This document shows, piece after piece, positions 27,312 through 42,463 of a stretch of 64,000 nucleotides of DNA (position 1 is the stretch's first letter; each line of letters opens with the position of its first letter). The notes beneath the pieces were generated by a model. It ran no database searches. It saw nothing but the letters and a program-made list of their open reading frames with translations, and had not been told where the DNA came from. Position numbers and translations under genes: made by a program. The DNA comes from Bradyrhizobium sp. B124. Lineage in GTDB: Bacteria; Pseudomonadota; Alphaproteobacteria; Rhizobiales; Xanthobacteraceae. The stretch is taken from assembly GCF_038967635.1 (NCBI RefSeq), contig NZ_CP152413.1:4902001-4966000 (forward strand), written 5' to 3'.

Positions 27312-27728
27312 TTATCGATGACTGTAGACGGGTGCTGGCGGGCGATACGGAAACGCCGAGACCCCGAAGTTGCGGCCATATTGCTGCTGCACCGCCGGGA
27401 TGTTGACCACGCCCACCTTGAGATCCTGCGATTTCGCGTCGATCGGCGGCGTGTTCGTCACGGGCGGGTTGACCTGATCGACCTGCTTCTTGAGCCGCTC
27501 GTTGATACAGCCAAGCGAGGCCGCATCGCCGCAGCGCTCGGCGGGCGCGCCGCCGCTGCCTCTTGCCGCAGCCCGGCCGGTGCCACCACTGGTGTCGCGG
27601 TTAAGGTTGAGCGCCGGCGGCGGTGTGCCGACGACAATTTCCGGCAGCGGCGTGTGTTGCTGCGTCTGCGCCTGCGCCTGCATCGCCGACAATCCGGCAA
27701 CGGCGACCGCCAACATGATCACTTTCAT
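27312..27728 (-). CDS. Exported hypothetical protein
   Basis: 138 residues starting MKVIMLAVAVAGLSAMQAQA, a clear signal peptide. AAGGAG lies 8 nt before ATG 27728; the longer frame (27791) lacks support. The mature part is Gly/Ala/Pro-rich with two Cys (AERCGDAASLGCINERL) that could form a disulfide. It is the last gene on this strand after the lytic transglycosylase gene and may belong to the same envelope locus. Confidence 0.65.
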   Translation of the reverse strand: MKVIMLAVAVAGLSAMQAQAQTQQHTPLPEIVVGTPPPALNLNRDTSGGTGRAAARGSGGAPAERCGDAASLGCINERLKKQVDQVNPPVTNTPPIDAKSQDLKVGVVNIPAVQQQYGRNFGVSAFPYRPPAPVYSHR

Positions 27729-27833
27729 CGGTGCTGCTCCTTGCAGAACCACAACTGTTTCAAACGATAGGAAGCCAAGGGCAGATATCAAGCGAGGGTG
27801 GGCAACGAGATGAATTCGGGCGGCGCGGGCTTG

Positions 27834-28763
27834 CTATTTCCCTCCCCGGGCCTGGGTCACAAGCGCGTTGAGCCGCGTGTTGAGTGCGACGAGATCGACG
27901 CGGCCGATGCGTCCGCCGCCGCCGAGGCATTTGCGGCCACATCCGCCGCCACCGCCACCGGCACGGCCCGGTTCGCCGAAGGTCGCGACCGGTACGGTGC
28001 CGGTCACCCGAAAGCCGCGGGCAAACAGCCGGGCGCGCACCGCCACGCAATAATTCACCGACAGATAGGAGAAGCGGGTCTCGCCATGACCTGCGCGGTA
28101 CTTCATGACCGCGGTGCACAGGTCGCCGCCGGCAAGGCGCCATGCCTGCGCAAGATACATGACGCCGAAGTGAATGTTGTTCTCGGGAATCGCGAGTTCG
28201 GCAAGCGAGCCGGAAAAGCCGAGCATGCGCGCGGTCGACGGCAGCAGCTGCATCAGACCGATTTCACCGACGCCGCCGATCACGTCGGGATTGTAGCCGC
28301 TCTCCACGCCCATCACCGCCTCGGCGATCTCGGGCGCGAGCCCGCTTCCCGCCGCCTCCTTCTCGATCAGCGCGCGATAGCGCATGCGCGCGTCCGATAC
28401 CGCGGGCTGGCCCACGGGCAGAGGCGGGAGCGTTTTCCCGCCGGCGTCCTTCGCCGCATCTTTGGCCGGTACGGCCGGCTTCGCCGTCGCCTCGGCCGGC
28501 GGCTTTTCCGTGGCGTCGGCTGAAGGGTCTGCCGACTCGACGGCGGCAAAGCGCGTGCTGAATGACGACGCCGGCCTCTCTCCCTCGGCATGGGCGGGCT
28601 GGACAAGACAAAGCGCGAGCACAAGACCGCCGGCTGCGATGCGGCTGCCCCGGTGACGAGCAGGATCAAGCAGCTTCCGCCATCGGCTGAAGCTGCCCGC
28701 CTTCGTCGCTGAGGCACCGTCATTCATCGGTCGCTTACGGCCCTGATCGTCGCGTGTCCGCAT
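27834..28763 (-). CDS. Lytic transglycosylase (SLT domain)
   Basis: A 309-residue exported protein: signal anchor (about 42-59), Ala/Lys/Pro linker, then an SLT domain (about 125-240) with catalytic Glu154 in VMGVESGYNP, GLMQLLPSTA and the NIHFGVMYLA block. It cleaves peptidoglycan glycan strands, which a trans-envelope machine needs. The C-terminus is unusual: a Gly-rich, two-Cys segment (GGGGGGCGRKCLGGGGRIGR) then a short helix. The start may be Met1 (28763) or Met13 (28727); neither has a strong ribosome site. Confidence 0.83.
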   Translation of the reverse strand: MRTRDDQGRKRPMNDGASATKAGSFSRWRKLLDPARHRGSRIAAGGLVLALCLVQPAHAEGERPASSFSTRFAAVESADPSADATEKPPAEATAKPAVPAKDAAKDAGGKTLPPLPVGQPAVSDARMRYRALIEKEAAGSGLAPEIAEAVMGVESGYNPDVIGGVGEIGLMQLLPSTARMLGFSGSLAELAIPENNIHFGVMYLAQAWRLAGGDLCTAVMKYRAGHGETRFSYLSVNYCVAVRARLFARGFRVTGTVPVATFGEPGRAGGGGGGCGRKCLGGGGRIGRVDLVALNTRLNALVTQARGGK

Positions 28764-28766
28764 GAT

Positions 28767-29297
28767 TTACTGGATCGTCGGAACTGCCCCCGCTTCCGCG
28801 GCGTGCTCATGGGACGGCTGCGGGGCCGGCGCACTTGGCTGCGGGACAGCCGCCGCGCCATTGCGGGCGACGATCTTCGGCAGCTCCTCGCGCAGATAGG
28901 CGATCAGCTCCTGAACCAGCCGGTCCCAGACCTCGATCTGCGCCCGCATAAAGTTCGGCGCCACGCCGCCGGCCACGGAGACATCGAGGCAGAACATCAG
29001 GAACGGCTGGCTGAACTGCAGCCGCCCGAACCGCCGCGTCGTGTTCCAGCGATTGACGAGGTCGAGCGGCAGCTCGCCCTGCACCTGAAGCGTGGTGACC
29101 AGCATGGCGTCGACAAAGCTCTGCTCCTCGCCGACGAGCTGGTTTCCCGGCCGGATCTCGAAGCCGAGCCCCGCCGTCGCCGAGCGCAGATAGGTCGTGT
29201 TGGCGACCGGATCGGTCAGCGTTTCGACGCGATAGCCGACATTCTGGAAGCTGTCGCGCAACCCGTCGATGGTGAGCTTGGTGATGATCTCGGACAT
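28767..29297 (-). CDS. YbjN domain-containing protein
   Basis: A 176-residue protein with a YbjN-type core (about 1-135; NVGYRVETLTDPVANTTYLRS, PLDLVNRWNTTRRFGRLQFS), a fold related to type III secretion chaperones. ATG 29297 has GGAG 6 nt upstream. The C-terminal ~40 residues are Pro/Ala-rich. YbjN proteins are soluble and often linked to stress or surface phenotypes; within this locus a chaperone-like role is plausible (inference). Confidence 0.8.
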   Translation of the reverse strand: MSEIITKLTIDGLRDSFQNVGYRVETLTDPVANTTYLRSATAGLGFEIRPGNQLVGEEQSFVDAMLVTTLQVQGELPLDLVNRWNTTRRFGRLQFSQPFLMFCLDVSVAGGVAPNFMRAQIEVWDRLVQELIAYLREELPKIVARNGAAAVPQPSAPAPQPSHEHAAEAGAVPTIQ

Positions 29298-29310
29298 GTT
29301 GGTCTCCGTA

Positions 29311-30366
29311 TTACTTTTTCGACGCGTCGAGCAGGCTCGACAGGGCAAGCTCGTTGAGAACGGGCGGATGTTGCTTCAGCAGTTCGGCAAGATAGGCCCG
29401 CCGCATCATGTTCGACCGCTCGGAGCGGATCTGCAGCACCAGCTGGTCGCGCACTTCCGGCAAGGTGCGGGTATAGGACGCCTTGGTGTCGAGCAGCTTG
29501 ATGATGTGCCAGCCGTCGTCGAGCTTGATCGGCTCGGACACGCTGTTCTTGGCGAGCCCCATCACCTGGTTGCGGATCTCCGGGCGGATCTGGCTTTCGG
29601 CAACCCAGCCGAGGTCGCCGGCATCCTTGGCGGCGTTGTTGTCGCCGCGCGCGATCGCCGCGAAGTCGGCTCCCGGCGCTTTCAGCTTGCGCTGCACGTC
29701 GTCGAGCTCCTGCTTCGCCTTGTCCTCGGCGGCCTTGTCGCCCTCCTTCGGGGCGGCGACGAAGATCTGCGCGAGCTGGAATTGCCGCGGCATCAGGAAT
29801 GCGGCGCGATTGGCCTCATAGACCTTCTGCAAATCGTCCTCGCTCGGGAAATTGGCCGGCGGCGTCGACACCGATTGCAGGTAGAGCTCGACCACCGCGC
29901 CCTCGCGCGCCCGGTCGAGCTGCGCGGCGACGGCGGGTTGCTGATCCCACTTCTTCGCCACCGCCTCCTGCAGCACGAGGCGGTTGGCAAGCAGCAGCCG
30001 GACCGTCTGGCTGAGCATGGCCGGATCCTTGGCCAGCGCAGCCTGCTCGCGCGGCGCGAGGGCTGCGACATAGCTGCGGAGATCATCGGCCGAGATATTG
30101 GTCTCGCCGACCCGCGCGATGACGTTCTCGGGCGCGGTGGGCTTCGGCGCGACCGCGACCGGAGCCGGCGCGGGCGTGGCGGCGGCTTGCGCCTGAGCCG
30201 CGGGCTGTGGCTGCGGCTTCCTGACCGGAGCCTGCACGGCGCGCGGCGCGGGAGCCTGCGTCTGCGCCGAGGCATCGAGCGGCGCAACGAAAGCCGCCAA
30301 GGCGACGGCGATTCCGGCGGCGAGACCGATCGACCGAAGCGGCTTCACGATAGTGGCGGTCGTCAT
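29311..30366 (-). CDS. Periplasmic peptidyl-prolyl isomerase (PpiC/SurA-like)
   Basis: A 351-residue protein with signal peptide (IAVALAAFVAPLDASAQ), a Pro/Gln/Ala-rich linker, a SurA-N-like helical region, and a parvulin domain (about 195-300; QLAQIFVAAPKEGDK, GDLGWVAESQIRPEI, DGWHIIKLLD). Parvulins fold outer-membrane proteins; here it neighbours TpsB and porin genes. Its ATG overlaps the previous stop (ATGA). Confidence 0.88.
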   Translation of the reverse strand: MTTATIVKPLRSIGLAAGIAVALAAFVAPLDASAQTQAPAPRAVQAPVRKPQPQPAAQAQAAATPAPAPVAVAPKPTAPENVIARVGETNISADDLRSYVAALAPREQAALAKDPAMLSQTVRLLLANRLVLQEAVAKKWDQQPAVAAQLDRAREGAVVELYLQSVSTPPANFPSEDDLQKVYEANRAAFLMPRQFQLAQIFVAAPKEGDKAAEDKAKQELDDVQRKLKAPGADFAAIARGDNNAAKDAGDLGWVAESQIRPEIRNQVMGLAKNSVSEPIKLDDGWHIIKLLDTKASYTRTLPEVRDQLVLQIRSERSNMMRRAYLAELLKQHPPVLNELALSSLLDASKK

Positions 30367-30956
30367 GGATTCACCTTCTGATCGAGGAATTTGTCCTGGC
30401 TTTCCTGCAGCTGATTCTGGATTTCGACCCGGCGCTGCTGAATCATCGGCTCGCGCGAGACCACGATCTCGCCGATAGTCAGGTCCTTGTAGCGCTGCAC
30501 CATCTCCTTGCCGGCCTTGATCAGCTGGGTGTTCTTGGCAACGCAGCTCTTGGTGCTGGCCTTGTAGGCGGTGGCCTCGCCTTCGAACTTGGCTCGCTCG
30601 GCGTCCTTGGTGCGAGCAACGGTAGCCGCCTCCTCATACGCCGACTTCCACTTCTCCAGCGTCTCGTCGCGTTCGGCGAGCCGCTGATTGAACTCGTCAA
30701 CGGCGTCGCGATGCTCCTTGTCGGCCTTCTTCAGCTGCGCCTTGAGGTCGTCGACCTCCTTCTTGGCCGCCGCCTTTTCGCGATCGGCGTCGGCGACCTT
30801 GGCCTGCAACGCCGTGCGCTGGTCTTCCAGCGCACGGGTCTGCGCCGTCGCGCTGCGCAGGGCGTCGCGCAGGCGGTCGGTCTCGGACTGGGCGAATGCG
30901 GTGCCAGAGCTCAATGCTCCGAACACCATCATCAGGACGAAGAGTGCGATGCGCAT
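30363..30956 (-). CDS. Periplasmic coiled-coil protein
   Basis: A 197-residue protein with signal peptide (MRIALFVLMMVFGALSSGTAFAQ split at about residue 23) followed by ~100 residues of heptads (ALEDQRTALQAKVADADREK, KKEVDDLKAQLKKADKEHRD). One Cys (KSCVAKN) is visible. It resembles Skp/YbgF-like helper proteins in layout only. It is translationally coupled to the isomerase gene. Confidence 0.72.
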   Translation of the reverse strand: MRIALFVLMMVFGALSSGTAFAQSETDRLRDALRSATAQTRALEDQRTALQAKVADADREKAAAKKEVDDLKAQLKKADKEHRDAVDEFNQRLAERDETLEKWKSAYEEAATVARTKDAERAKFEGEATAYKASTKSCVAKNTQLIKAGKEMVQRYKDLTIGEIVVSREPMIQQRRVEIQNQLQESQDKFLDQKVNP

Positions 30957-30958
30957 GG

Positions 30959-32857
30959 TCAGAACTTCGCGTTGAGGTCGACTTGCAGGACGTCGACGGC
31001 ATAGGGGCTGCCGGCGATGCTGTTGGCGCTCATCCAGCGCAAGGTCGCCCAGACATTCTCGCCGAGACCGATATTGCCGCCGACGAAATAGCCCTTGAGG
31101 TTGGTGCCGCCGAGGCCGAAGTCGGAGTCGGCGAACGCATCGATGGTGGCGTCGGATTCGAGGTATTTGTAGCCAGCGTGGACGTTCCAATCCCAGAGAT
31201 GCTTGATCTCCCTGTTGCCGACGGTGACACGGCCGAGCCAGCCCTGATTGCCGCCGTTGAACGCGCCAGGCGTGGTGCCGCCATCCGGGCTCGGCCCGCG
31301 ATTGTTCATCAGCACGCCGTAGGTTGCCGCAGCCGCGTTCATGAAGGAGCGGCTGAACGCGGTGTTGTAGACATACTCGCCGTCGAGCACGATGTGGGTC
31401 GGATGGAATTGTCCGAGATCGAGCTGTCCGCTGACAACGACTGGCCGATATTGGCTGACCAAGCCGAAATATTCGAACTGGTTGATCGTGCCGCCATTGT
31501 TACCGGTGCCCGGAGGATCGGCGATGATGTTACGCAGCGGGAAATAGGTATTGCCCTTCTGCGCGAAGGACGGCCGGGTCAGGTCGGTGTCGCAGACGTC
31601 GGATGCGGACGTGACCCTGCAGGGGCTCGAGAACTGGCCCTGAACATTGTCGAAGTCGTAGAAGGCAACGCCGAACCGGAATGAGTATTCCGGGCTGAAC
31701 CGGGCATTGAAGCCGACCTGGCCTCCGAACAGCCACTTGTCGTGGCTGGCAAATTTGCTGGGCGGCGAGTTCAGGTTGCTCGGATCGGCCGGTAGATTGC
31801 TGCCGGCATTGAAATCGGTGTTGTAGATCGGGAACGCACCGCCCACCGCAAACGGCGTGAAGCCTTCCCAAACCTCGTGCTTGGCCTGAACGGCAAAACC
31901 ATCGAAGCCGAGCTCCTTGTACCAGACCAGATCGGTCGGCGACCAGAATGGATTGTCGATGCGACCCGCGGAGATCCTCAGATCGTCGCCCCAGGTCTGC
32001 CAGTTGATGTAGCCGCGATCGAGCCAGACGCCATACTTCGAGAAGTTGCCGCCACCGCCGCCAAGGGTCTGGTTGGTCGACACCGGCGAGTTGTTCTCGC
32101 CGGTCGCAATGCGCAGGCCGGCAGTGAACCCGTACAGCAGGTCGGCTTCCATGCCGAGCCGGCCGCGGAAGCGGAACTGGTTGCGATCCTGCGTGGCATC
32201 GTAGGTCGGACCAAACGCAGTGCTCGAAATGTCATACGGCGATCCGGTATTGATCGCATTGAAGTTGGCGGCGCCGGCCTGGTCGTTGCCGGTCGGGAAA
32301 TAGGCACCCTGATAGCGCACGCGTGCATCGCCGTAGAAGCGGATGCGTTGCGCCCATTCCGGGTAGGTTCCGGGCGACGCCCAGTTTTCTTTCTGCGCCT
32401 TGGCCATCACCTCCTGCTTAATCTCTTCCCGTAACTGTCGTTTGACGACTTCGGGAACGTAGGTGACGTGCCGGGTGCCCGGCGGCTGCGCCGCCGCGGC
32501 GGCAGCCGTTGCGGCCTTGGTGGCGTCGTCGGCCTTGGTCGTGGCGTCCTTGGCGGCCTGGCGGGAGACATAGGCCTCGTCCTCGGCCTGCTTGATCAGC
32601 GCCTGGGCCTGCTCTTCCTTGAGGACACCCTGCTGCACCAAGAGATTGACGAGATTGACGGTGGCATTCGACGATGTCGGCTTGGTGCTCGATACCTTCG
32701 GCTTCTTCGCGTCGGTCCGCTTCGCCGCGGCGGCGGGACCCTGCTCGGCAGCCTGGTCCGCGGTCTGGCCCACGGCCGGCGTTGCGCAGGCGAGCGCGCT
32801 CAGCGACACCGCAAGCGGCAACGCGCGCCATTCTGCGTGAGCTCGTTTCTTAAACAT
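30959..32857 (-). CDS. Putative outer-membrane porin
   Basis: A 632-residue protein with signal peptide ending ATPAVGQ. An N-terminal helical/coiled region follows (VLKEEQAQALIKQAEDEAYV), then a long beta-barrel (about 165-632) with RIRFYGDARVRYQGAYF and the C-terminal Phe typical of BAM substrates (QVDLNAKF). It fits the putative-porin family (PF16930-like). ATG 32857 is preceded by GGGGGA. Substrate unknown. In this locus it could be the channel served by the TonB/ExbBD genes or an anchor for the secreted cargo. Confidence 0.83.
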   Translation of the reverse strand: MFKKRAHAEWRALPLAVSLSALACATPAVGQTADQAAEQGPAAAAKRTDAKKPKVSSTKPTSSNATVNLVNLLVQQGVLKEEQAQALIKQAEDEAYVSRQAAKDATTKADDATKAATAAAAAAQPPGTRHVTYVPEVVKRQLREEIKQEVMAKAQKENWASPGTYPEWAQRIRFYGDARVRYQGAYFPTGNDQAGAANFNAINTGSPYDISSTAFGPTYDATQDRNQFRFRGRLGMEADLLYGFTAGLRIATGENNSPVSTNQTLGGGGGNFSKYGVWLDRGYINWQTWGDDLRISAGRIDNPFWSPTDLVWYKELGFDGFAVQAKHEVWEGFTPFAVGGAFPIYNTDFNAGSNLPADPSNLNSPPSKFASHDKWLFGGQVGFNARFSPEYSFRFGVAFYDFDNVQGQFSSPCRVTSASDVCDTDLTRPSFAQKGNTYFPLRNIIADPPGTGNNGGTINQFEYFGLVSQYRPVVVSGQLDLGQFHPTHIVLDGEYVYNTAFSRSFMNAAAATYGVLMNNRGPSPDGGTTPGAFNGGNQGWLGRVTVGNREIKHLWDWNVHAGYKYLESDATIDAFADSDFGLGGTNLKGYFVGGNIGLGENVWATLRWMSANSIAGSPYAVDVLQVDLNAKF

Positions 32858-32920
32858 CAGTCCCCCAGTTCTCACTCGCACATTGAATCTCGAAGGTTGG
32901 TCGTTCGTCAGTCGGTCTCG

Positions 32921-33730
32921 TCAGCTCGGCCGTCGCGCGGTGACGCGCGTGACCACCGGCATCGGCATGTCCTTGGGTGGCGGTTCGCGCAGCGTCAGAC
33001 TGCCGATCACCTCGTTGCGAAGCGCCGCATCGATCTCCGGATTGCCGGAGGACGGCGTCAGGACGACGCGGGTGACGTGGCCGGAGCCATCCACCCACAG
33101 CCGCACCTGGATTTGCGTCGCCATGTTGCGGGTCTTCGGATTGGCGCGGATCGCCGCCTCGACCTGCGAGGTGATGATCGTGGTGTACCAACCCCAGCGA
33201 CTGCCACCGCCGCCGCCTCCGCCATACGGGTTGCCGCCGGGCTTGCCGCCGAGATTGAACAGATCGCCGGGTCCCGTCGGCTTGGCATCGAGCGACAGCG
33301 GACCGGGCGGCTCGTCGTTCTTGGCGTCCTTGGCCGGCTCGTCCTTCGGCTTGTCGACCGGCTTCTCTTCCTTGAACTCGGGCTCCGCCATCTTGGGCTG
33401 CTCGATCATCTTCTGCTCGGGCTGCGGCTGTGGCGGCGGAGGCGGAGGTGGCGGCGGCAGCGTCACATTGACAATGGTGAGATCGCGCACCTGACGCGGC
33501 GGCGGCAGATCGTCGTGACCGAGAAAGAAGTAGACGATGCCGCCAAGGAACAGCGCGACCACCGCCACCACTGCGCCGTAGCGCAGCAGCGCACTGCGTT
33601 CGCCCTTCCGGGCGGCCGTGTTGCGGGCAGCCGACGGCGGCGCCGCGGCTGTTGCGGGCGCGACGGCAACATCGTGATCGTCGGCTGACGGCGCGGCGCG
33701 CGCGTTCTGGTCCCGCATCGGCGCGTTCAT
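32921..33730 (-). CDS. TonB family energy-transducer protein
   Basis: A 269-residue protein with a cytoplasmic Ala-rich start, one TM helix (YGAVVAVVALFLGGIVYFFL), a polyproline stretch (PPPPPPPPPQPQPEQK), a Lys/Glu/Pro-rich rigid spacer, a Gly-rich insert (GGKPGGNPYGGGGGGGS) and a C-terminal TonB-C domain (QVRLWVDGSGHVTRVVL). It would transmit ExbB/ExbD-driven force to an outer-membrane partner. It overlaps the upstream gene by 4 nt. Confidence 0.85.
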   Translation of the reverse strand: MNAPMRDQNARAAPSADDHDVAVAPATAAAPPSAARNTAARKGERSALLRYGAVVAVVALFLGGIVYFFLGHDDLPPPRQVRDLTIVNVTLPPPPPPPPPQPQPEQKMIEQPKMAEPEFKEEKPVDKPKDEPAKDAKNDEPPGPLSLDAKPTGPGDLFNLGGKPGGNPYGGGGGGGSRWGWYTTIITSQVEAAIRANPKTRNMATQIQVRLWVDGSGHVTRVVLTPSSGNPEIDAALRNEVIGSLTLREPPPKDMPMPVVTRVTARRPS

Positions 33731-34284
33731 GGCGCGGCCTCCACCGCGGCGCGGTCGAGCAGCCTGTCATTGACGTATTGCATGACGAAGCTGGCAAGCG
33801 CGTCGAAGTCCGTGGTCTTCAGGATGACCTTGGTATCGGGGCCTGCTTCGATCGCTGCGTGAAAGGTCTCAACCTCGCTCAGATAGTCGACATAGGCCGT
33901 CGCGTCGATCGACAGGCGGGCCCACGGGCATCGCGAGATTGTCAGCCGCAGCGGGTTGTCGGCGGGCTCGCGGCCTGCGACGTGCCGGCGCAGCACATCC
34001 GCGAGCTTGACCAGCAGGGCCTCGCCATGAACGGGAAATGCCACCACCTCGCCGCGCTGCTCTTCGCGCACGTCCGCGGCGATCGGTATCACACCGAGTT
34101 CCGCGCCAATACCGGCGCGGATCGGCACCTGCGAAACGGGCTCGGCGCGCGTGACGTCCGCGGCACCGCAGCCGTGATCGAATGATCGCATCATGCCGCT
34201 CAGCCACGACCGTAGCGTCCTGCGCTCGGTCAGCGGGAAAGGTGATGGCTGCGTGATCATGGCGTCGCTTCCCGACTGGCTCAC
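33727..34284 (-). CDS. Cytoplasmic protein of unknown function in the exb operon
   Basis: A 185-residue protein without signal or TM segment. A mixed alpha/beta pattern is visible (GEVVAFPVHGEALLVKLADV; NPLRLTISRCPWARLSIDAT; TKVILKTTDFDALASFV). GTG 34284 gives a GTGA overlap with exbD; an ATG at 34260 with GGGA upstream is an alternative. Its insertion between exbD and tonB suggests a regulatory or assembly role; no family is recognised. Confidence 0.65.
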   Translation of the reverse strand: MSQSGSDAMITQPSPFPLTERRTLRSWLSGMMRSFDHGCGAADVTRAEPVSQVPIRAGIGAELGVIPIAADVREEQRGEVVAFPVHGEALLVKLADVLRRHVAGREPADNPLRLTISRCPWARLSIDATAYVDYLSEVETFHAAIEAGPDTKVILKTTDFDALASFVMQYVNDRLLDRAAVEAAP

Positions 34285-34685
34285 TTCACGAGCGGCTTGG
34301 TGGCGAGCCCGACCTGGCTCAGGCCGATACGGCTGAGCAGATCGAACACATCCATCACGCTCTGGTACTGCGCCTGCGCATCGCCGCGCAGCACCACGGG
34401 AAATTCCGGCGTCAGCGCCTTCTGCTGGATCAGCCGCTGCTCGAGCTCGGCCAAGGTCACCGGTATAGTGTCGAGGAAGATCTTGCCGTCATTGGCGACC
34501 GTGATTGCCTTGGTGGTCTGGGTCGCAAGGCTCGGCGCCGCCGAGGCCTTCGGCAGATTGACCTTCTGGCCCTGCACGGTCGCCGTCGTCATGATGATGA
34601 AGATCACCAGCAGCACGTAGGCGAGGTCCAGCATCGGCGTGATGTTGATGTCGTCATAGGGCTTGGAGTCGGCCTGGATCTGCAT
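34281..34685 (-). CDS. exbD: ExbD/TolR family protein
   Basis: A 134-residue protein with an N-terminal TM carrying the essential Asp (TPMLDLAYVLLVIFIIM) and a periplasmic ExbD domain (KAITVANDGKIFLDTIPVTL, VVLRGDAQAQYQSVMDV). It pairs with the ExbB domain encoded just upstream (5-nt gap) to form the proton channel that powers TonB. Confidence 0.92.
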   Translation of the reverse strand: MQIQADSKPYDDINITPMLDLAYVLLVIFIIMTTATVQGQKVNLPKASAAPSLATQTTKAITVANDGKIFLDTIPVTLAELEQRLIQQKALTPEFPVVLRGDAQAQYQSVMDVFDLLSRIGLSQVGLATKPLVK

Positions 34686-34690
34686 GGCCG

Positions 34691-36730
34691 TTACTCCGCA
34701 GCGATACGGTGTTCGATCGGGTCCGGCCGGTCGGCGGAATAGAATTCCGCCATCTTGGTCACGAACTCGTCGACGAAGACCTGAATGTCGTTGGTCAGGT
34801 CCTTGATCCGGGAGATCAGGTAGTTGTAGCCGAACAGCGCCGGGATCGCGACGCCGAGACCGGCGACGGTTGCGACCAGCGCCGCGGCGATGCCGGGCGC
34901 GATCGCGTTGACGTTGACGTCGCCGCTCGCCGCGATCGCCGCGAAGGTGATCATGACGCCGACCACGGTGCCGAGCAGGCCGAGGAACGGTCCGCCGGAG
35001 ATCGCGATGGTCAGCACCACCATCAGGCGGTTGAGGCGCTGCATCTCCTTGACGACGCCGCTATCGAGCGCCGCGCGGATCGCCGCGATCGAGACCGCCG
35101 ACAGCACCGGAGCGCGCTGCGAGTTGCTGAAGCGGTGACGGATTTCCGCGGCGCCGATGTGGTAGATGCGGTAGAGCGAGGACGAGCGCATCATCTTGGC
35201 GTCGGCCTCGGTGAGGCGTCCGCCCAGCGTCGAGATGTCGTCGGCATCGCCGCGATCCAGCATGGTGAGATCGGCCGCGATCTCGCGGAACCCCTTCATG
35301 AACTGGGCATTCGCCCTGGCCTGCTTGCTGAGATACGAGGCTCTGTCGAACATCACCACCCAGCTGACCGCGGCCATGATCAGCAGAATGCCGATCACCA
35401 CCCAGCCGTCGAGCGTCACCGACTTCAGGATCACCGCGAAGTAGCCGGACAGCCAGCTTGCAGTCTCCTCGTCGACGCTGAATGCCATCAGCTTGGCCTG
35501 GTCGGGCCCCTGCCCGATCGCCATCACCTTGATCAGTCCGGCGGGGCGCGCGACCTTGCTGATCTGCAGCTCGTCGATGTCGCCGACGAAGCCGGCCATC
35601 GCTACGGCAGCAGGCGCAGGTGCCGGTGTTGCCGCCGCATCCGGCGTCGCCGCGGGCGCGGCGCCACCGTCCGCAGCCGGCGCATCAGGGGGCACTGATG
35701 GTGTTGCTGCGGACGGGGCCGTCGCAGGCGCGATCGGAGAGGCACTGGAGGTCGACGAGTCTCCTCCGATCAGGCCAACGGTATTGAGGGCGGGCAGGCT
35801 CGCGCTGAGCGCGGCGTAGGATACGCCGTCGAGATAGAGCGTGACCTGACCGTTTCCGGCAACGACGGCGACATGATGCCAGCTACCGGCCGCGACCGGC
35901 GCTCCGGCGCTCGAGCGCTGCACGGAGCCCGCGTTGGTGACTTCGACAAACGGACTGCCATTGTCGACCCCGACCACCAGTGCGTTGGCGCCGTCACGCC
36001 GGCTGAACAGCGCGGCGTTGGGCTGCAAGGCAGCCGGCTTGATCCAGGCCGACCAGGTCAGCGCGGCACCATCCGGCGACGCGAGCGACGGCGAGGCCGG
36101 CACCGTGACCGGTGTGCGGCCGTCGAGCCGCAAGCCGGTCCCGATCAGCGAACCGTCCGCCGGCTGGCCGACACTTTGGGCGTTATTGGCCCACACCGAG
36201 GAATCGATTGCCGGCGTGCCGCGCTCGTTGAAGTGATAGACCGTCAACGTATCCGGATCGTAAGTGCCCTTCGGATCGCTGGTCGCGAGCGCTTTCTTGT
36301 TGCCGTAATAGAGCCAGATATCGGTCCGCGCGCCCGGCGCGATGTTCGGCACCGCGACCCAGACCAGGCCTTCGCCGAGCAGCGAATCGAACTTCTCGAT
36401 ATGATGCTTCAACGGCGTCTTGTCGTCACCGGCGACGAACCGCAGATCGCTGCCGTCGTCCTTCGCCGAGCTGAAGCGGAAGTTGCCGACATGCAGGCGC
36501 ACCAGCACCGGCACCCCGCCGATCGGATCGGTGACGTTGGCGCCCGACGCGCTGACGTCGACCGTGATCTTCTTGCGCAGCGACCATTCGTCGTTCCACC
36601 ACGCATTGGCCGGCGCGAGCGACGCCACCAGGGCGACGAGCCCGAACAACAACGCCGTCGCGACGTTCGCAACGCCTCGGCGCAGCGCCGGCCGGCGCGT
36701 GCGTCGCTCGAGAGTAAGACCCATGCCCAT
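34691..36730 (-). CDS. DUF2341-LamG-ExbB/MotA fusion protein
   Basis: A 679-residue fusion. Signal sequence (about 22-43); DUF2341 (about 44-145, WWNDEWSLRKKI, DIWLYYGN); LamG/concanavalin-like domain (about 160-400, ALTWSAWIKP, GSWHHVAVV, VTLYLDGV) with an Ala/Pro-rich insert at about 326-376; TM1 (about 442-461); a cytoplasmic helical domain; and a MotA/TolQ/ExbB channel (about 565-640, ISGGPFLGLLGTVVGVMITF and GIAAALVATVAGLGVAIPAL). Ordinary ExbB has no such large periplasmic lectin-like head. The ATG overlaps the tpsB stop (TAATG). Confidence 0.88.
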   Translation of the reverse strand: MGMGLTLERRTRRPALRRGVANVATALLFGLVALVASLAPANAWWNDEWSLRKKITVDVSASGANVTDPIGGVPVLVRLHVGNFRFSSAKDDGSDLRFVAGDDKTPLKHHIEKFDSLLGEGLVWVAVPNIAPGARTDIWLYYGNKKALATSDPKGTYDPDTLTVYHFNERGTPAIDSSVWANNAQSVGQPADGSLIGTGLRLDGRTPVTVPASPSLASPDGAALTWSAWIKPAALQPNAALFSRRDGANALVVGVDNGSPFVEVTNAGSVQRSSAGAPVAAGSWHHVAVVAGNGQVTLYLDGVSYAALSASLPALNTVGLIGGDSSTSSASPIAPATAPSAATPSVPPDAPAADGGAAPAATPDAAATPAPAPAAVAMAGFVGDIDELQISKVARPAGLIKVMAIGQGPDQAKLMAFSVDEETASWLSGYFAVILKSVTLDGWVVIGILLIMAAVSWVVMFDRASYLSKQARANAQFMKGFREIAADLTMLDRGDADDISTLGGRLTEADAKMMRSSSLYRIYHIGAAEIRHRFSNSQRAPVLSAVSIAAIRAALDSGVVKEMQRLNRLMVVLTIAISGGPFLGLLGTVVGVMITFAAIAASGDVNVNAIAPGIAAALVATVAGLGVAIPALFGYNYLISRIKDLTNDIQVFVDEFVTKMAEFYSADRPDPIEHRIAAE

Positions 36731-38484
36731 TAGAATTCACCCCAGATTCGGAAGTTCACGCGCGGACTGTTTGCGTGCGTGTATTGTTGAGCGACCCCTG
36801 GCACCGAAAGCGCGACCATGCCGTTGAAATATTCGAAGGTCTTGAATCGCGTGCCGAGGCCGTAGCTCCATGCGACGAATGACGATTGCTGATCAGGCAG
36901 CGGCTGCTGGATCGACGCGTAGCCGGCATCGAAGAACGTGAAGAAGCGCCAATCGTTGAAGGTGATGAAGCGCGGCTTGCCGTCGCCGGTTTCGCTCTTG
37001 AGCTCGCCTTGCAGCATGCTGCCGACATTGGGCGTGCGCAGCTCGAAATTGGCGACCGCGCCGTTGTCGCCGAGCACCTCGGATTCGAGGTAGCCGCGAA
37101 CGGTATCGAGACCGCCGAGGCTGAACTGCTCGCTCGAGACCAGCGGGCCGTCGGCAATCTGGCCCTGCACCTTGCCGTAGAGCTGGAAGCCTTCCGGCAG
37201 CTCCTGGGTATGCGAGACGTCGAGGTTGAGGTGGGTGAAGCTCGGCGAAGCCTTGAAGCGCTTCGCGTCGAACTCGTCCCACGGGCTGCTCAGCGTCCGG
37301 ATGTTGTAGGTCACGCCGGCATTGAACTGCGTCGTGAACTTCTCTTCCTGGAACGTCGCCCCATAAGTCGCGACGACGGGATAGTAAGTGACAGGTGACG
37401 AGAACCCGTCGGTGCCGAGCTTCACGGTCTGGTCGAAATGCTTGTAGTCCATGCCGACCGACAGCGTGTGGAACAGGCCCTCGCGCGTCGGCAGCGTGAT
37501 CACGGCGCGCTCGCCGATGATCGTGCCGGGACCGACCACATTGGTGCCGCCGATCGTCGCGACATTGCTGTTCGACTTCACGCTGTAGAACAGCAGATTG
37601 AGCCAATCGGCATTCGGCACGCGCGCCATATACGAGCCGGAGAACACCTCGGCATCACTCGGGCGCTCCGGCGCAACCTGATAGGTGAAGCTCAGCGAAT
37701 GCCCGAGCTGCCACAGATTGTCGTAGTGCACGGTGGCGGAGACGCGGCTCGCCGTAGTGGACGGCGATTGCCGGTTGTTGGCTTCGAGGCTGGCGTGGAA
37801 CGGCGCCTTGTCCTCGACATTGAGATCGACGTCGACGGTGCCCGGCGCAACGCCGGCGCGCAGCGCCGGAGTCACGCGGCGATCCGGCCATTGGTTGAGC
37901 GACACAATGTCCTTGGTGACGTCACCGAAATTGGGAACGGTGCCCTCCTTCAGCGAAGGCGCGCTGTCCTTGATCCGGTCGAGATCGAAATAGCGCGAAT
38001 TCTTCACCCGCAGGCGCCCGACCTTCAACTCGGTCACCTTGAGGGTGACCACACCGCCGGTCACGTTCTGCTGCGGGACCGCAACGCTGACGGTCTGGAA
38101 GCCCTTGTCGTGATACGCCTTCTCCAGCGCGGCCCGCGCCTTCTCGACGTCCTCCGAGGTCTTGCCCGGACCGAGGAAGGGATAGATCGCCTCCTCGATC
38201 TCGACCTGCGGCAGCCTATCGGCGCCCTGTACGGCGAAGTCGTCGATGTCGAAGCGCTGCAGCGGCGCTGACGGCTTTTGCGCCGGTGCATTCGCCTGCG
38301 CCGGCTGCTTGCCCGCCGCCGGCGCTGCGGCCGCAGCCGCATCCTTCGCTGCTTCCTTCGCCGCGCGCGCCGGAACGATGGCTGCCACGGAGCCAACCAC
38401 GGTGAGTGCCGCAGCCGACACACGCAACCCGATCCGACATCGCTGACGATGCCCGAAAATCCGATGATCTCTTCGACTACGCAC
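36730..38484 (-). CDS. ShlB/FhaC/HecB-family two-partner secretion transporter (TpsB)
   Basis: A 584-residue Omp85-superfamily protein: signal sequence (VSAAALTVVGSVAAIVPARA), Ala/Pro linker, POTRA_2 (about 78-150, FDIDDFAVQGADRLPQVEIE), a second POTRA-like part (LRVKNSRYFDLDRIKDSAPS), and a 16-strand barrel with the conserved VRGYLESEV loop motif and C-terminal Phe (FRIWGEF). It should export a large TpsA exoprotein, yet none is adjacent. GTG 38484 with GGGA upstream matches the signal sequence; the longer frame to 38577 is unlikely. Confidence 0.87.
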   Translation of the reverse strand: MRSRRDHRIFGHRQRCRIGLRVSAAALTVVGSVAAIVPARAAKEAAKDAAAAAAPAAGKQPAQANAPAQKPSAPLQRFDIDDFAVQGADRLPQVEIEEAIYPFLGPGKTSEDVEKARAALEKAYHDKGFQTVSVAVPQQNVTGGVVTLKVTELKVGRLRVKNSRYFDLDRIKDSAPSLKEGTVPNFGDVTKDIVSLNQWPDRRVTPALRAGVAPGTVDVDLNVEDKAPFHASLEANNRQSPSTTASRVSATVHYDNLWQLGHSLSFTYQVAPERPSDAEVFSGSYMARVPNADWLNLLFYSVKSNSNVATIGGTNVVGPGTIIGERAVITLPTREGLFHTLSVGMDYKHFDQTVKLGTDGFSSPVTYYPVVATYGATFQEEKFTTQFNAGVTYNIRTLSSPWDEFDAKRFKASPSFTHLNLDVSHTQELPEGFQLYGKVQGQIADGPLVSSEQFSLGGLDTVRGYLESEVLGDNGAVANFELRTPNVGSMLQGELKSETGDGKPRFITFNDWRFFTFFDAGYASIQQPLPDQQSSFVAWSYGLGTRFKTFEYFNGMVALSVPGVAQQYTHANSPRVNFRIWGEF

Positions 38485-38657
38485 AGACGTCCCACTTACT
38501 TCGCGCAGACGCGCGCCATCGCGACAGGAAGGCCGCGATGACGACGCCTTACTCAGAAGACGACTGGGCGAACGCAAACCCGCAAAAGAATCTGCGGCGG
38601 CGCAAAAGAAATTTTTGGTTTGTTAGGAAATCGAGCGTGCGGCGCCGATTCGTTCGG

Positions 38658-38695
38658 CTTTAGCCCCGTTCCGATTGCAGCGGACGGGGCTAAAG
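38658..38695. repeat. Perfect 12-bp hairpin between fecR-like and tpsB genes
   Basis: CTTTAGCCCCGT (38658-38669) and ACGGGGCTAAAG (38684-38695) pair perfectly around a 14-nt loop. There is no T run on the minus strand, so it is either a weak transcription barrier between the regulator and structural operons or a short repeat. Confidence 0.55.
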
Positions 38696-38777
38696 ACTTT
38701 TGACGCGTTTTCTTCACGCGAACCGATATCCATCCCGCATCAAGTGCGCGACAGGCTTCGCTCGAAAACGCTCCAGG

Positions 38778-39761
38778 TCAACTCATCAGCACCACACCGC
38801 CGGGCAGCGATGTGATCCGTGCGCCGAACAGTTGCTCGACCTGGGCGACGAAATTGTCGAGCTTGTCGACCTGGAATGTGCCGTTGACGAGCCGGCGTTT
38901 CAGTTCCGCGTTGGTAATGATGATCTTTCCGGCGCGGTACCGGTTCACTTCGTCGACGACGCTCGCCAGCGGCCGGTCGCGGAAGATCAACAATCCGGTC
39001 TGCCAGGCCGCGACCTGCTTGGCGTCGACCGGAAGCGATGCCTGTAGGCCCGCGCGCGAATAGGTGACCTGTTCTGCCTTGCGAAGCTGCACGGAACGGC
39101 CGTCCTGCTCGACAGTGACGATACCGTCGAGGCACGTCACCGAAACCACGCCATCGAGGCAGCGCGCATTGAAATCGGCCTGCAGCGCGCTGATGCGTCC
39201 GTCGCGCGCCAGCATCACCAACGGCGTCGACGACGATCTTCTTGCGACCACCGAGGCCTCGCCCGAGATCAACTCTACCCGAGTCTCGTTCGGCGCAGGC
39301 CGCAGCGCCAGGCTGGTCTGGGTGTTCAATTCAACCGAAATGTCGGGCGCCAGCATCACCTTGCGCTGTTCGCCCTTTCCGGTCCGGTAGTCGGCCGAGA
39401 GCTCTTCGATCGACGGCCACATGTCGAGTGGCGGGCGAATCATCACATAGCCGGCTGCGGCTGCGATCGCACCGCCGAGCACGATGCGGCGCGTCAAGAA
39501 GCGTGATGGCCGGGGCGGCAACGCCACCACGGGGGCCGCCGCGGCCTGCTCATCGGCGAGTTCCTTCGCCGCGGCGCTGGCGCTGCGGAGCAGCCGGGCA
39601 GCCGCCCTGAAAGCATCCTCGTGGTCTGGACTTTGCGCGCGCCAGCGTTGCAACGCGTCGACGTCGGCGCGGGTCGGCACGCCGGCTTTCAGCCGAACTA
39701 CCCAGTCAAGCGCCTCATCCAGCAACGGATCGGGCCCGGAAGTGCGGGTCGGCTCGGTCAC
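38778..39761 (-). CDS. FecR-family anti-sigma regulator
   Basis: From GTG 39761 the product is 327 residues, a normal FecR length. It contains an N-terminal DUF4880 helical domain (LLDEALDWVVRLKAGV, HEDAFRAAARLL), one TM (IVLGGAIAAAAGYVMI), a FecR domain (YRTGKGEQRKVMLAPDISVE, VELISGEASVV) and a C-terminal STN-like/DUF4974 part (RPLASVVDEVNRYRAGKIII). It would hold and signal to the ECF sigma factor encoded upstream. The frame is open to 40028 but that extension is Cys/Arg-rich and unlikely. Confidence 0.83.
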   Translation of the reverse strand: MTEPTRTSGPDPLLDEALDWVVRLKAGVPTRADVDALQRWRAQSPDHEDAFRAAARLLRSASAAAKELADEQAAAAPVVALPPRPSRFLTRRIVLGGAIAAAAGYVMIRPPLDMWPSIEELSADYRTGKGEQRKVMLAPDISVELNTQTSLALRPAPNETRVELISGEASVVARRSSSTPLVMLARDGRISALQADFNARCLDGVVSVTCLDGIVTVEQDGRSVQLRKAEQVTYSRAGLQASLPVDAKQVAAWQTGLLIFRDRPLASVVDEVNRYRAGKIIITNAELKRRLVNGTFQVDKLDNFVAQVEQLFGARITSLPGGVVLMS

Positions 39762-40223
39762 GACGGATCGCTCATCACCCTGCTCGCCAAACCTCAACCT
39801 CCCAATCGCGTCGAGCACATAGCGAAGTTCGCTATATAGACGATTCCGACGGCAGCAGGGCACCGCAATCGGCCGTTGCGCACAACGCAGGCAGAAACAT
39901 CCGGCAATCGCGGCTTGCTCCGGGTCGCGCGCCGGGAGGCCGCGCGGCGATCGCATGCCGGGCCGATCAGGTCTGCACGTGTTTTCAAGCGGCGCAACAC
40001 TTCCGGCGAACCTTTCCCAGGCACCCAACGGTCCTTGTGAGATCGCTCTCTACCCTATAGACGACGGAAAGCCCGCTATCCCGCAGAACAGAGGTTGAGA
40101 ATCCTGCAGCTTGTGCCCCCTGATTTCAGGTCAAGCGCCTGCAGTTGTTGGAAATAGTTCCGGCAACAAATTTCGACGGCCGGCTCCGCGCGACGGCGCG
40201 CGTCGCGGCCGCGGCGAATGCGA
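39762..40223. other. Long non-coding gap between ECF sigma and fecR-like genes
   Basis: 462 bp separate the sigma stop from the chosen fecR start, unusually long for a fecI-fecR pair. A perfect 17-bp palindrome, ATAGCGAA-G-TTCGCTAT (39819-39835), lies 58 bp before the fecR start, with a TATATA stretch beside it. No protein is recognised in the gap. The region could hold a separate fecR promoter. Confidence 0.5.
39819..39835. promoter_or_regulatory. Perfect 17-bp palindrome upstream of the fecR-like gene
   Basis: Arms ATAGCGAA and TTCGCTAT around a single G, with a flanking TATATA. A candidate dimeric operator for an unidentified regulator; no family consensus is recognised. Confidence 0.45.
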
Positions 40224-40766
40224 TCACGTACGGGGACGAGGACCGCCGAGACGACGGATCAGAGTATAATCGAGGCAATCGGCACAATGGCTCAGGGCCA
40301 ACTTCAAATCGCTTTCCACCGTTCGCACGCTGACACCGAGGCGGGTTGCCACATCGCTCGGCGTCCGTCCCTCGATCGTAATACCATAAAGCACATCGCG
40401 CGGCCGCTCCGGCAATTCGGCCAACGCCCGCTTGAAGGCATCAATATCGGAGCGCGCCTCGACGATTCGCGCCGGGCTCGGTCCGTCGTCGCTGACGTCG
40501 AGCAATGAATCGATTTCGGCCGCACTGACGCGGAGATTCTGCGCCTTCTGGCGATCCCTGGCGATGTTGATCGCGATACGGAAGATATAGTCGGCGGGGC
40601 TGCGGATCGGCACCGCGTCAGTGACCCGCTCCAGCCGCAGGAACGTCTCGTGCAGGGCTTCGTACGCGAAGTCCGACGATCCCAGACGGCGGGTCAATTT
40701 CTTGACCAGGCCGTCGTAGTTATCTGCAAGCTGGCCCCGCAGCCGCATTCGATTGATTTCAGCCAC
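40224..40766 (-). CDS. ECF (FecI-like) RNA polymerase sigma factor
   Basis: A 180-residue sigma-70 family protein with region 2 (SPADYIFRIAINIARDRQK) and region 4 (ELPERPRDVLYGITIEGRTP, VSVRTVESDLKLALSHC). GTG 40766 has GGAGG 9 nt upstream. The FecI-like ordering with a FecR protein downstream suggests cell-surface signalling control of the secretion locus. Confidence 0.88.
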   Translation of the reverse strand: MAEINRMRLRGQLADNYDGLVKKLTRRLGSSDFAYEALHETFLRLERVTDAVPIRSPADYIFRIAINIARDRQKAQNLRVSAAEIDSLLDVSDDGPSPARIVEARSDIDAFKRALAELPERPRDVLYGITIEGRTPSDVATRLGVSVRTVESDLKLALSHCADCLDYTLIRRLGGPRPRT

Positions 40767-40967
40767 GTTCCGCGGCCTCCCAGACACCAGCCCGATATCC
40801 AGATTGAATTGTTCTTGAAGCTGCCCATCTCGTAACGGCCGCGCACAACACATTTATGACGGCAACAAGTCGACACCGAACGACACGCAGGCTGGTGCAT
40901 CGCGGTCACATCCAACCAATGAACTGCCGCTCGCGCTCGCGAAGCCGAACGCGACCGCGCAATTGGA

Positions 40968-41696
40968 TCAGGCCGGGTCGAAGACCAAAGTGATCTGAAT
41001 ATTGAGCCGGTCGGGCAGCGCCGACGGGATCAACGGCAGCGGCTGCGCCCGCCGGATCGCGTCGACCGCAGCCTTGTCGAGCACGGCCTGTCCGGAACTG
41101 GTCTTGACCCAGACCTCGAGCAGGGTGCCGTCCCGCTGCATGGAGAACAGCGTCTCGACCGCCCCGTGCAGCCGACCGAGCCGCGCCGCGTTCGGATAGC
41201 GCTGGTAGCGTGCCACGTGACGAAGCAGCGCCTGCTGAAATTTCACGGCGACAGTGTTGGGCGGCGCATCGGCGGGCGACGGCGTCGGACGCAAGCTCGG
41301 CACGGTTGGCTCCGCCGGCATCGGCTCCCGCGCCGGGGCCGCGGTCAGATTGTCGAGCGGCGGGTCAGAGCTCTCCAGCGACACCTCGGTCCGGCTCGCG
41401 AGGGTCGCGGTTTGCGGCTGCGACACGGGCGCAACCGGAATCGGCGCAGGCGACGGGCTCGGCAGCAACCGAACCTGGACGATCGAGCTCTGCTCCCGGC
41501 TTGCCGATCCAGCCGGCGGCTGCAACCGGATCCAGTAAATTCCCCCGACGAACAACAGGGCCGCGATGGCCGGCACCAGGAGCAGACGCAGCACCTCGCC
41601 CGAGGTCCACGCGCTCGGATCCTCGGGATGAAACAGCAGCGTCATCGGCCTCAAGCCGCGCACGCCATCCGCTCCGCTGGCGTCGTTGTCAATCAT
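40968..41696 (-). CDS. TonB-like energy transducer of the sigma locus
   Basis: A 242-residue protein with a single TM (LLLVPAIAALLFVGGIYWI), Pro/Ser-rich spacer and C-terminal TonB-C domain (YQRYPNAARLGRLHGAVETL, DGTLLEVWVKTSSGQAVLDK). It is the second TonB in the locus and is coupled (ATGA) to the STN protein gene, suggesting that it contacts that protein rather than an outer-membrane receptor. Confidence 0.83.
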   Translation of the reverse strand: MIDNDASGADGVRGLRPMTLLFHPEDPSAWTSGEVLRLLLVPAIAALLFVGGIYWIRLQPPAGSASREQSSIVQVRLLPSPSPAPIPVAPVSQPQTATLASRTEVSLESSDPPLDNLTAAPAREPMPAEPTVPSLRPTPSPADAPPNTVAVKFQQALLRHVARYQRYPNAARLGRLHGAVETLFSMQRDGTLLEVWVKTSSGQAVLDKAAVDAIRRAQPLPLIPSALPDRLNIQITLVFDPA

Positions 41697-42463
41697 TGGA
41701 ACGATTTCACCCGGATTGCGATCCGCACCGGCTGCGACGCATTCGCAGGCGTCGTCCGGCTGACGGTCAATCCTTGCAGCGCCGCCGTCACGGCGGCATC
41801 ACGGTTCTGATCGCCGGTCGATCGCAACAGCTGGGTTCGCTGGATCGTGCGCGAGGGATCGATCCACAGATCGACAACGAGCTGATAGCTGCCGCCGCGA
41901 GACCCGATATTCTTCTGCAACGCTTTCTGAAGGTCGAACTGCAGGCTTTCGCTGTAGTCGCGCAGCGCGCCGGTATCGTTGCCGTCACTGCTCGCCCGCA
42001 CCTGCAGCGTGCCGAGCGACAGATCCGCGGTCGCAAGCGGGCTCAACGGCGGATGGTCGGCCCGCGCGGCGCGCGAAGCAAGCGTGATGGCATCCGGACG
42101 AATGTACTGGACCTTCAGATCGGTTCCCGCCAGCAGCACATTCAATGCATCCTCGGGCGTGAGGCTGCCTTCGACCGATGTCGACTTCCGGCCCGTCGCA
42201 GAATTGCTCTCATAGAGCACCTGAACGCCGGTTCGTTCGCCATAAGCCTGCAGCGCACTCGCAAGCTGCTGGGCCGGGATGTTGAATTCGATCGCTGCGG
42301 ATGCCGTGACGGTGTCGCGCTGCTGCGCGGCAACCGCGCAGATGCTGCCAATCAGCAGCGCAGCACAAATCCCGAACAGATACCGCGACGTTGCGGAGGC
42401 TCCCGGAGCGTGAGCGCCGATCGCAGCGCCCGCGCGTGCACCATATGATCCAACTGCCGTCAT
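41693..42463 (-). CDS. Free STN-domain (secretin/TonB N-terminal) protein
   Basis: A 256-residue protein with an N-terminal TM/signal segment (YLFGICAALLIGSICAVAA), an STN domain (about 58-130: FNIPAQQLASALQAYGERTG, SVEGSLTPEDALNVLLAGTD) and a C-terminal region resembling TonB-C (SYQLVVDLWIDPSRTIQRTQ, DAAVTAALQGLTVSR). In FecA-type systems the STN domain is the N-terminal part of a receptor; here the barrel is absent and a TonB-C-like domain is present instead. It probably supplies the periplasmic signal to FecR. Confidence 0.8.
   Translation of the reverse strand: MTAVGSYGARAGAAIGAHAPGASATSRYLFGICAALLIGSICAVAAQQRDTVTASAAIEFNIPAQQLASALQAYGERTGVQVLYESNSATGRKSTSVEGSLTPEDALNVLLAGTDLKVQYIRPDAITLASRAARADHPPLSPLATADLSLGTLQVRASSDGNDTGALRDYSESLQFDLQKALQKNIGSRGGSYQLVVDLWIDPSRTIQRTQLLRSTGDQNRDAAVTAALQGLTVSRTTPANASQPVRIAIRVKSFQ

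Follow-up and report, generated by a model that had tools for sequence, protein, structure and literature searches.

We examined a 64,000-nt window of the 9.17 Mb single-contig genome of Bradyrhizobium sp. B124, in which 15 genes, all on the minus strand from 42589 down to 27312, surround a transporter of two-partner secretion (TPS). The window contains a single TpsB export hub, consisting of TpsB, a dedicated ExbB-ExbD-TonB motor, a Porin_5 porin and periplasmic helper proteins, and it also carries genes for an STN protein, an extracytoplasmic function (ECF) sigma factor and a FecR anti-sigma factor, the vreA-ecf-fecR or vreAIR set. The TpsA exoproteins of such hubs end in a tail with one or two short boxes, through which motor and sensor may recognize the cargo. 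The genes are described first, then the tails and how they might be read.

The TpsB locus and its probable exoprotein partners

An earlier note on this DNA, made from the sequence alone, named the gene types of the locus. All are present and co-directional. A Pfam family scores above cut-off for 12 of the 15 (Table 1), the exceptions being the 185-residue protein, the coiled-coil protein and the small protein at the end of the locus. The two TonB proteins listed there are confirmed, but a third TonB-fold domain had been missed. It is a TonB_2 domain at residues 211-281 of the STN protein (24.3 bits; cut-off 22), so that TonB1, TonB2 and the C-terminal domain of the STN protein make three TonB-fold proteins. 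Pfam finds no barrel domain in the STN protein (298 residues; start at 42589 or 42463), which is thus not a FecA-type receptor carrying an STN domain. A barrel-less STN protein with a TonB-like C-terminal domain next to ECF and FecR genes is what the PUMA3/Pdt locus type requires, and the ExbB channel, ExbD and TonB are encoded together, as a TonB energy-transduction system requires. Four-base overlaps occur at 4 of the 14 junctions (STN/TonB, exbD/185-residue protein, 185-residue protein/tonB and coiled coil/ppiC), and tpsB and exbB overlap by 1 base. The other nine junctions are gaps of 2 bases to about 200-360, the largest before fecR and tpsB and dependent on the start chosen. The claim that the genes mostly overlap was therefore too strong, and with few overlaps and so many gaps the locus is likely read as more than one transcript.

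For TpsB itself, Pfam reports one POTRA_2 domain and ShlB, while the second POTRA domain and the FhaC-like barrel come from an AlphaFold2 model (pLDDT 80.6) whose best PDB match is CdiB (6wim), with FhaC also matched. The model does not predict an N-terminal plug helix, but pLDDT is below 50 in that stretch, which makes it uninformative on this point. A TonB box on TpsB was considered and rejected: the stretch before POTRA1 is an unconserved, Ala/Pro-rich segment that is disordered in the model, and no conserved element was found there in the aligned hub TpsBs (of 84 open frames selected, the alignment took those with 480-950 codons).

The locus is a member of the PUMA3/pdt type already described from Pseudomonas, with vreAIR and pdtB-exbB2D2-tonB4 (PMC2729926, PMC7035377, PMC4971064; here and below, literature statements refer to the available sections of the cited papers). 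A comparison with P. aeruginosa, based on the gene order given in the papers rather than on sequences, sets the locus beside vreA-vreI-vreR, pdtA and phdA-pdtB-exbB2-exbD2-tonB4-PA0696 to PA0701. Both have a VreA of the described STN plus TolA/TonB-like build (PMC2729926), an ECF factor and FecR, and tpsB followed by exbB, exbD, tonB, porin, PA0697, YbjN and PpiC; the full tpsB-exbB-exbD-tonB-porin-PpiC-YbjN set is present in the window. They differ in that tpsA is unlinked here and present in three copies, an extra TonB gene stands between vreA and ecf, vreAIR lies directly before tpsB, and PpiC precedes YbjN and then an SLT gene. In addition, hxc type II genes were not found among the genes scanned in the window. 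The 2009 paper already reports R. palustris (Rhodopseudomonas) with three tpsA clusters and one tpsB-exbBD-PA0696 cluster (PMC2729926).

That the locus lacks tpsA, as the earlier note stated, is true, but the genome contains three TPS-domain open frames elsewhere (4123, 4112 and 4504 codons), all distant from the window. A genome-wide search for the TPS domain thus bears out the expectation that large exoproteins are encoded at other sites. The 9.17 Mb genome has one POTRA_2 match, the window TpsB, and because no other TpsB was found, the hub very likely exports all three giant TpsAs. The tpsA1 and tpsA2 genes are each directly preceded by their own vreA-ecf-fecR set (32% identity to the window copy for vreA, 39-44% for ECF and 41-44% for FecR), and tpsA3 has no such set. 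FecR proteins with DUF4880 number three, the window copy and those of tpsA1 and tpsA2, the last of them below cut-off (150 of 350 candidates scored). Upstream of the tpsA2 set, and on the same strand as it, is an open reading frame that by eye resembles a TonB-dependent receptor (L007, 4484-6814).

The hub gene order recurs widely. Of 100 family genomes, 48 have TpsB, 42 have TPS-domain proteins and 12 have DUF2341, the domain fused to ExbB in this locus. In all 12 of the latter a POTRA_2 TpsB lies directly upstream of the DUF2341 gene on the same strand, and tpsB, exbB, exbD, tonB, porin and coiled-coil gene are retained in 12/12 family hubs. The ExbB fusion occurs in 14 of 398 genomes of the phylum (13 besides our own); each of the 13 contains a TpsA frame of 3295 codons or more, and in 11 TpsB is beside the fusion or one tpsA away (G118, G454). 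The exceptions are G363, with fusion and TpsB on separate contigs, and G379, whose fusion lies at the end of a contig and in which TpsB was not found. Finally, we examined 80 named loci of 234 confirmed in a genome scan, a set that includes other Pseudomonas but not P. aeruginosa. A tps gene lies within 1.5 kb upstream of exbB in 72 of these and elsewhere within the stretch examined in six more; none was found in the stretch examined of the other two (L232, L258). The association of tpsB with DUF2341-ExbB is not a matter of chance, and exb/tonB and tpsB do not move separately (12/12 family, 11/13 phylum and 78/80 named loci with a tps gene), in line with what the earlier note supposed. It had also held that a separately regulated tpsA gene adjoining the hub in close relatives would speak against its proposal. 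This is in part the case, as several relatives do have a giant tpsA beside the hub, in some of them with its own vreAIR; it refutes a permanently orphaned tpsB, not the link between motor and TPS.

Table 1. Genes of the TpsB hub, in window coordinates and in order of transcription
Gene or product	Position	Strand	Evidence and remarks
vreA-like gene, STN and TonB-like C-terminal domain	41693..42589	-	Pfam STN 2.8e-10, TonB_2 3.4e-05
TonB2 gene	40968..41696	-	Pfam TonB_C 4.9e-13; 4-base overlap with vreA
ECF sigma factor (vreI-like)	40224..40853	-	Pfam Sigma70_r4_2 3e-11
FecR anti-sigma/sensor (vreR-like)	38778..39956, alternative start 40028	-	Pfam FecR 5.3e-13, DUF4880 3.4e-12
tpsB, FhaC/CdiB-type transporter	36730..38577, start uncertain (38484 or 38421 possible)	-	POTRA_2 1.9e-15, ShlB 8.7e-21
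ExbB fusion: signal region, DUF2341, laminin-G-like domain, MotA/TolQ/ExbB channel	34691..36730	-	Pfam, homologues
exbD	34281..34685	-	Pfam ExbD 6.6e-29
185-residue protein	33727..34284	-	no Pfam family; recognized in only some hubs
TonB1, tonB of the hub motor	32921..33730	-	Pfam TonB_2 2.3e-05
Porin_5 outer-membrane porin	30959..32881, likely start 32857	-	Pfam 3.6e-214
Coiled-coil protein, signal-peptide-like start (by eye)	30363..30956	-	open reading frame; family kept in hubs
PpiC/SurA-like prolyl isomerase	29311..30366	-	Pfam Rotamase_2 3e-18
YbjN-family protein	28767..29297	-	Pfam 1.5e-05
SLT lytic transglycosylase	27834..28763	-	Pfam 6e-19
Small protein, recurrent near hubs	27312..27728	-	no Pfam family

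Two boxes at the exoprotein C-terminus

The tails were compared in 76 hub TpsAs, comprising 33 family giants, 19 phylum giants and 24 named-locus TpsAs (complete end and a hit); one named locus (L224) duplicates a phylum genome. The 12 family hub genomes hold 34 giants, 1 to 9 per genome, one of which (G004, contig C341) is cut by the contig end and was excluded from the counts. As classical controls, 30 proteins were taken: 19 hand-picked out of 43 non-hub TPS proteins, from hub genomes and from the longest of the 43, and all 11 non-giant TPS proteins of the phylum set. The box test used 26 of them, as four without a complete end were dropped. The controls also exclude the G072 TpsA, which was too long for one stretch; in two stretches from that genome only a weak tpsB was seen.

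In tpsA1, Pfam places DUF3739 at 3705-3814 of 3911 residues. A DUF3739-like domain is present in 52/52 hub giants and 0/30 classical TpsAs, the profile having been built from the same 52. The beta-helix and DUF3739 are followed by a variable linker, then box 1 and, in many proteins, box 2. A model of one hub TpsA C-terminus (mean pLDDT 72.8) has a confident beta-helix and then a disordered tail.

Box 1 is a 14-residue element ('VEVLGYG'), typically PSVIIVEVLGYGG, and in seven proteins the chain ends one residue past it (L150, L243, L245, L246, L251, L253, L256). Its consensus is found in 65 of the 76 hub TpsAs (33/33 family, 15/19 phylum, 17/24 named), in none of the 26 classical TpsAs with complete ends, and in only 2 of 1988 windows taken from other parts of these 76 proteins. 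As a DNA pattern it matches the 9.17 Mb genome exactly three times, at the three TpsA ends, and a reversed control gives no match. Box 1 is also alike within genomes, with a within/between ratio of 0.37 (p 0.0005; 35 giants, 9 multi-giant genomes), or 0.66 (p 0.001) in the family genomes alone. The ratios for DUF3739 (0.99), the TPS domain (0.97) and box 2 (0.99) are near 1 and indicate no homogenization. A single shared reader in each genome would account for this uniformity, and the hub is the obvious single copy; gene conversion, on so short a stretch, would be a less likely source. It is likely that a component of the hub reads box 1, and TonB1 is our slight favorite for that component.

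Box 2, identified by eye in 48 of the 76 tails, reads Y-D-P-N-S-x-x-Q-V-L-G-x-G and is followed by a short segment often like LTxxERxxL. To the eye it often resembles box 1, both being close to [EQR][VI][LIV]GxG. It is present in all 36 TpsAs that adjoin vreAIR. Within the family, vreA-ecf-fecR lies directly upstream of 27/27 giants with box 2 and 0/6 without it, and the 19 phylum giants divide into nine with box 2 and vreAIR, five with box 2 only, five with neither and none with vreAIR only. A leave-one-genome-out box-2 profile, trained on vre-adjacent tails only, scores the 36 vre-adjacent tails at 15 or more, the 28 tails lacking box 2 at 6 or less, and the other 12 at 14 or more.

A survey of 49 hub genome entries extends this link to VreA. 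A two-domain VreA match is found in all 23 entries with box-2 TpsAs (22 distinct, one genome apparently occurring twice) and in 3 of the 26 without, all three copies being beside the hub. The remaining entries have STN-only or TonB-only matches among the matches listed; coverage is not available for the weakest matches (best E 5.9e-16 or weaker, G505 1.5e-16), which include the sole ones of G118, G363, G505, G513 and G514. In the VreA alignment, a cysteine pair is by eye missing from five rows (window, L177, L182, L238, L255), each of which comes from a locus that has a TonB2 gene, and present in the other 16; most tpsA-linked VreA copies have the pair. Box 2 is fairly likely to be read by VreA or FecR.

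Another class of TpsA, of 5.8-6.1 thousand residues and near its own tpsB, was seen at L068 and L069 (G086, G034). These proteins end in RPVEAIGSGPAVN or GPIEVIGEGPAVN-like sequences (GPIEVIGEGPAVN in L069) that resemble box 2 and are possibly a relative of the same tag. ExbB/TonB hub genes were not recognized in the stretches examined around them.

Co-variation with regulators and a possible mechanism

Co-variation was evaluated for 36 giants with adjacent regulators, using 68 within-genome pairs shuffled within genomes, which controls for genome but not for the paralogue tree. Over all pairs, tail distances correlate with those of the VreA C-terminal half (0.52), the STN half (0.44), ECF (0.47) and FecR (0.57), as against r = -0.09 for DUF3739 and 0.06 for the TPS domain of the same protein. 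Within genomes, the tail follows the VreA C-terminal, TonB-like half (r 0.41), FecR (r 0.59) and ECF (r 0.34), each with p 0.0005. The STN half (r 0.23, p 0.16), the protein's own DUF3739 (r 0.13, p 0.058) and its own TPS domain (r 0.28, p 0.11) are not significant. When VreA is divided into 70-column windows, the signal is strongest at residues 216-285 (p 0.001), which is the TonB_2 domain; the overlapping window 159-250 gives p 0.016 and the three windows preceding it p 0.09-0.44. With 34 giants the main result was the same.

The two short, similar strands in the tail, one tracking a TonB-like domain and the other behaving as if it had a single reader in the hub, are most easily understood as handles. 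In the explanation that we consider best, at a probability of roughly 0.55, TpsB would export the beta-helix of the giant TpsA while the tail remains periplasmic. The C-terminal domain of TonB1 would bind box 1 in the manner of a TonB box, through beta-augmentation, and ExbB/ExbD and the proton gradient would act on the exoprotein, not on TpsB, late in export, to hold, pull or release it. The TonB-like half of VreA, FecR or both would read box 2, and VreA, FecR and ECF could then report whether a given exoprotein is present or finished and so tune the gene for that exoprotein. Taken further, this would amount to a TonB-dependent form of two-partner secretion, with a public tag for the proton-driven hub and a private tag for a TonB-like sensor that signals to its own sigma factor, a proposal we rate a little below even odds. 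One hub would then serve 1 to 9 giants in the 12 family genomes sampled. That the tails, matched both to hub and to regulator, are a new element is moderately supported. The idea of the earlier note, a motor-assisted or signal-coupled TPS variant, gains support from them, although the gene arrangement is not the undescribed one it was taken for.

Parts of this mechanism have precedents. The C-terminal third of Bordetella FhaB is retained in the periplasm (PMC8263021). TonB boxes bind TonB as beta-strands, by beta-augmentation; in BtuB, local structure matters more than side chains for TonB-box activity, and in FpvA the STN sheet pairs with the TonB-box strand (PMC11658791). One SusC protein has VDEVVV as its TonB box (PMC7782687). 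FhaB/FhaC has in common with the hub a TPS domain, an FhaC-fold transporter and a large beta-helical exoprotein. The last 98 residues of FhaB restrain protease processing, and the available sections mention no motor (PMC8263021), whereas the hub TpsA tail follows DUF3739 and has short boxes tied to the TonB hub and VreA/FecR. TonB-dependent signaling through FecA/FpvA and FecR likewise uses ExbB, ExbD, TonB, STN, FecR and ECF; in that system TonB reads short beta-strand peptides, as it may do here. In contrast to that system, the STN protein here has no barrel, the candidate boxes are at the C-terminus of a secreted protein instead of the N-terminus of a receptor, and ExbB bears a large DUF2341-laminin-G part.

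Several observations weigh against the handle mechanism, some of them by favoring other explanations. For box 1, both the strict and the looser pattern were written after the sequences had been inspected; no more than 32 of the 76 hub TpsAs have the strict form, and 11 escape the looser one, most of these near-variants by eye and one (L148) very weak. Its likeness to a TonB box was also judged by eye. Across 42 genomes, Porin_5 follows box 1 as well as TonB1 does (r 0.65 versus 0.63; TpsB not included), and Porin_5 is recognized in 73 of the 80 named loci, tonB in 74. Box 1 could then be an outer-membrane anchor by which the C-terminal end of TpsA attaches to Porin_5, TpsB or the coiled-coil protein, the motor acting on one of the three and not on TpsA. 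We consider this improbable, because box 2 often resembles box 1 by eye and tracks a TonB-like domain, which favors a TonB fold as the box-1 reader too.

As for the motor, type V transport has been reconstituted in vitro without external energy (PMC5422565), and exbB2-exbD2-tonB4 of the known PUMA3 loci is termed uncharacterized (PMC7035377). The locus might be a plain PUMA3/pdt member in which TPS is energy-free and ExbB, ExbD and TonB are merely co-regulated, serving Porin_5 or ordinary TonB-receptor uptake. This is unlikely in view of the position of DUF2341-ExbB, beside tpsB in every family genome that has it and nearly always elsewhere. Pfam also finds no TonB-dependent receptor among the 15 genes and the two flanking regulators, and box 1 is uniform within genomes, as with a shared hub reader.

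The evidence on the reader of box 2 is also divided. FecR matches the tail at least as well as VreA does. In low phosphate, moreover, a P. aeruginosa vreA deletion mutant retains wild-type levels of the regulon (PMC4971064), and VreA may therefore not be what reads the signal in that species. It is conceivable, if rather doubtful, that the periplasmic part of FecR reads box 2 directly and that VreA is accessory or vestigial. All eight windows along FecR are significant (p 0.001-0.029), as would be expected of an operon passenger, whereas the strong VreA signal is confined to one domain and the two-domain VreA is kept in every entry with box 2. For 12 of the 48 box-2 TpsAs an adjacent vreAIR was not seen, some stretches being too short to show it.

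Shared history has to be weighed as well. In a tree of the DUF3739 region, box 2 and vreA linkage each change six times, and in the independent contrasts on supported branches the two traits change together in 4/4 cases (p 0.125), which is too few. DUF3739 is weakly correlated within genomes with the VreA C-terminal half, FecR and ECF (r 0.32, 0.24 and 0.31; p 0.05-0.07), r for the first 70 columns of TpsA is 0.40 over all pairs and 0.20 for within-genome pairs (no p computed), and in the 34-giant run the tail retains a partial correlation with the TPS domain given DUF3739 (r 0.23, p 0.007). Box 2 and vreAIR might accordingly have been co-inherited by descent without contact. We think this very unlikely: the rest of TpsA is largely free of that history over all pairs, and the TPS end adjoins vreAIR yet is uncorrelated with the tail.

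The driving force of TpsA passage across the outer membrane and the role of Pseudomonas exbB2-exbD2-tonB4 both become testable through the 14-residue box, and the tail hypothesis is cheap to test. Should it hold, the proton gradient would be coupled to large adhesin-like proteins by way of the cargo itself, and each cargo would be sensed one-to-one by a private tag and sensor. In the literature on the TonB-TPS link, DUF3739 and pdt genes (titles and abstract openings, with few subscription papers), we found no motor role in TPS, no such tails, and no comparable cargo-tag wiring or cargo sensing. The name PdtA does not appear among the 120 homologues listed of 1734.

Distribution of the module and neighboring genes

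According to record titles, the module occurs in Alpha-, Beta- and Gammaproteobacteria, Verrucomicrobiota and one Nitrospirae metagenome-assembled genome. The closest named relative of the window ExbB protein in the genome scan is that of Bradyrhizobium altum (99%). In many methylotroph and nitrifier loci, tpsA precedes exbB. Loci with Verrucomicrobiota titles that have the tpsB-exbB fusion pair are L189, L191-L193, L196, L199, L200, L206, L211, L214 and L216, from Chthoniobacterales, Spartobacteria, Opitutaceae, Verrucomicrobiaceae and Akkermansiaceae as titled; the occurrence of the pair there suggests horizontal spread or great age. The ExbB fusion is followed by a tandem exbD pair in L240, L250, L258, L236 and L179. 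In G053 (L030-L038), a genome of the same family, a single ExbB-fusion hub stands against nine giants that all have a vreA-ecf-fecR set of their own, an extreme instance of many cargoes under separate regulation for one exporter.

In the window, the locus is flanked on the opposite strand by an AraC-type regulator (25795-26973) and a TetR-type regulator (42811-43590). Downstream of the TetR gene are open reading frames that by eye resemble a sugar ABC transporter, and a tRNA-Arg (acg) lies at 51107-51183 on the minus strand.

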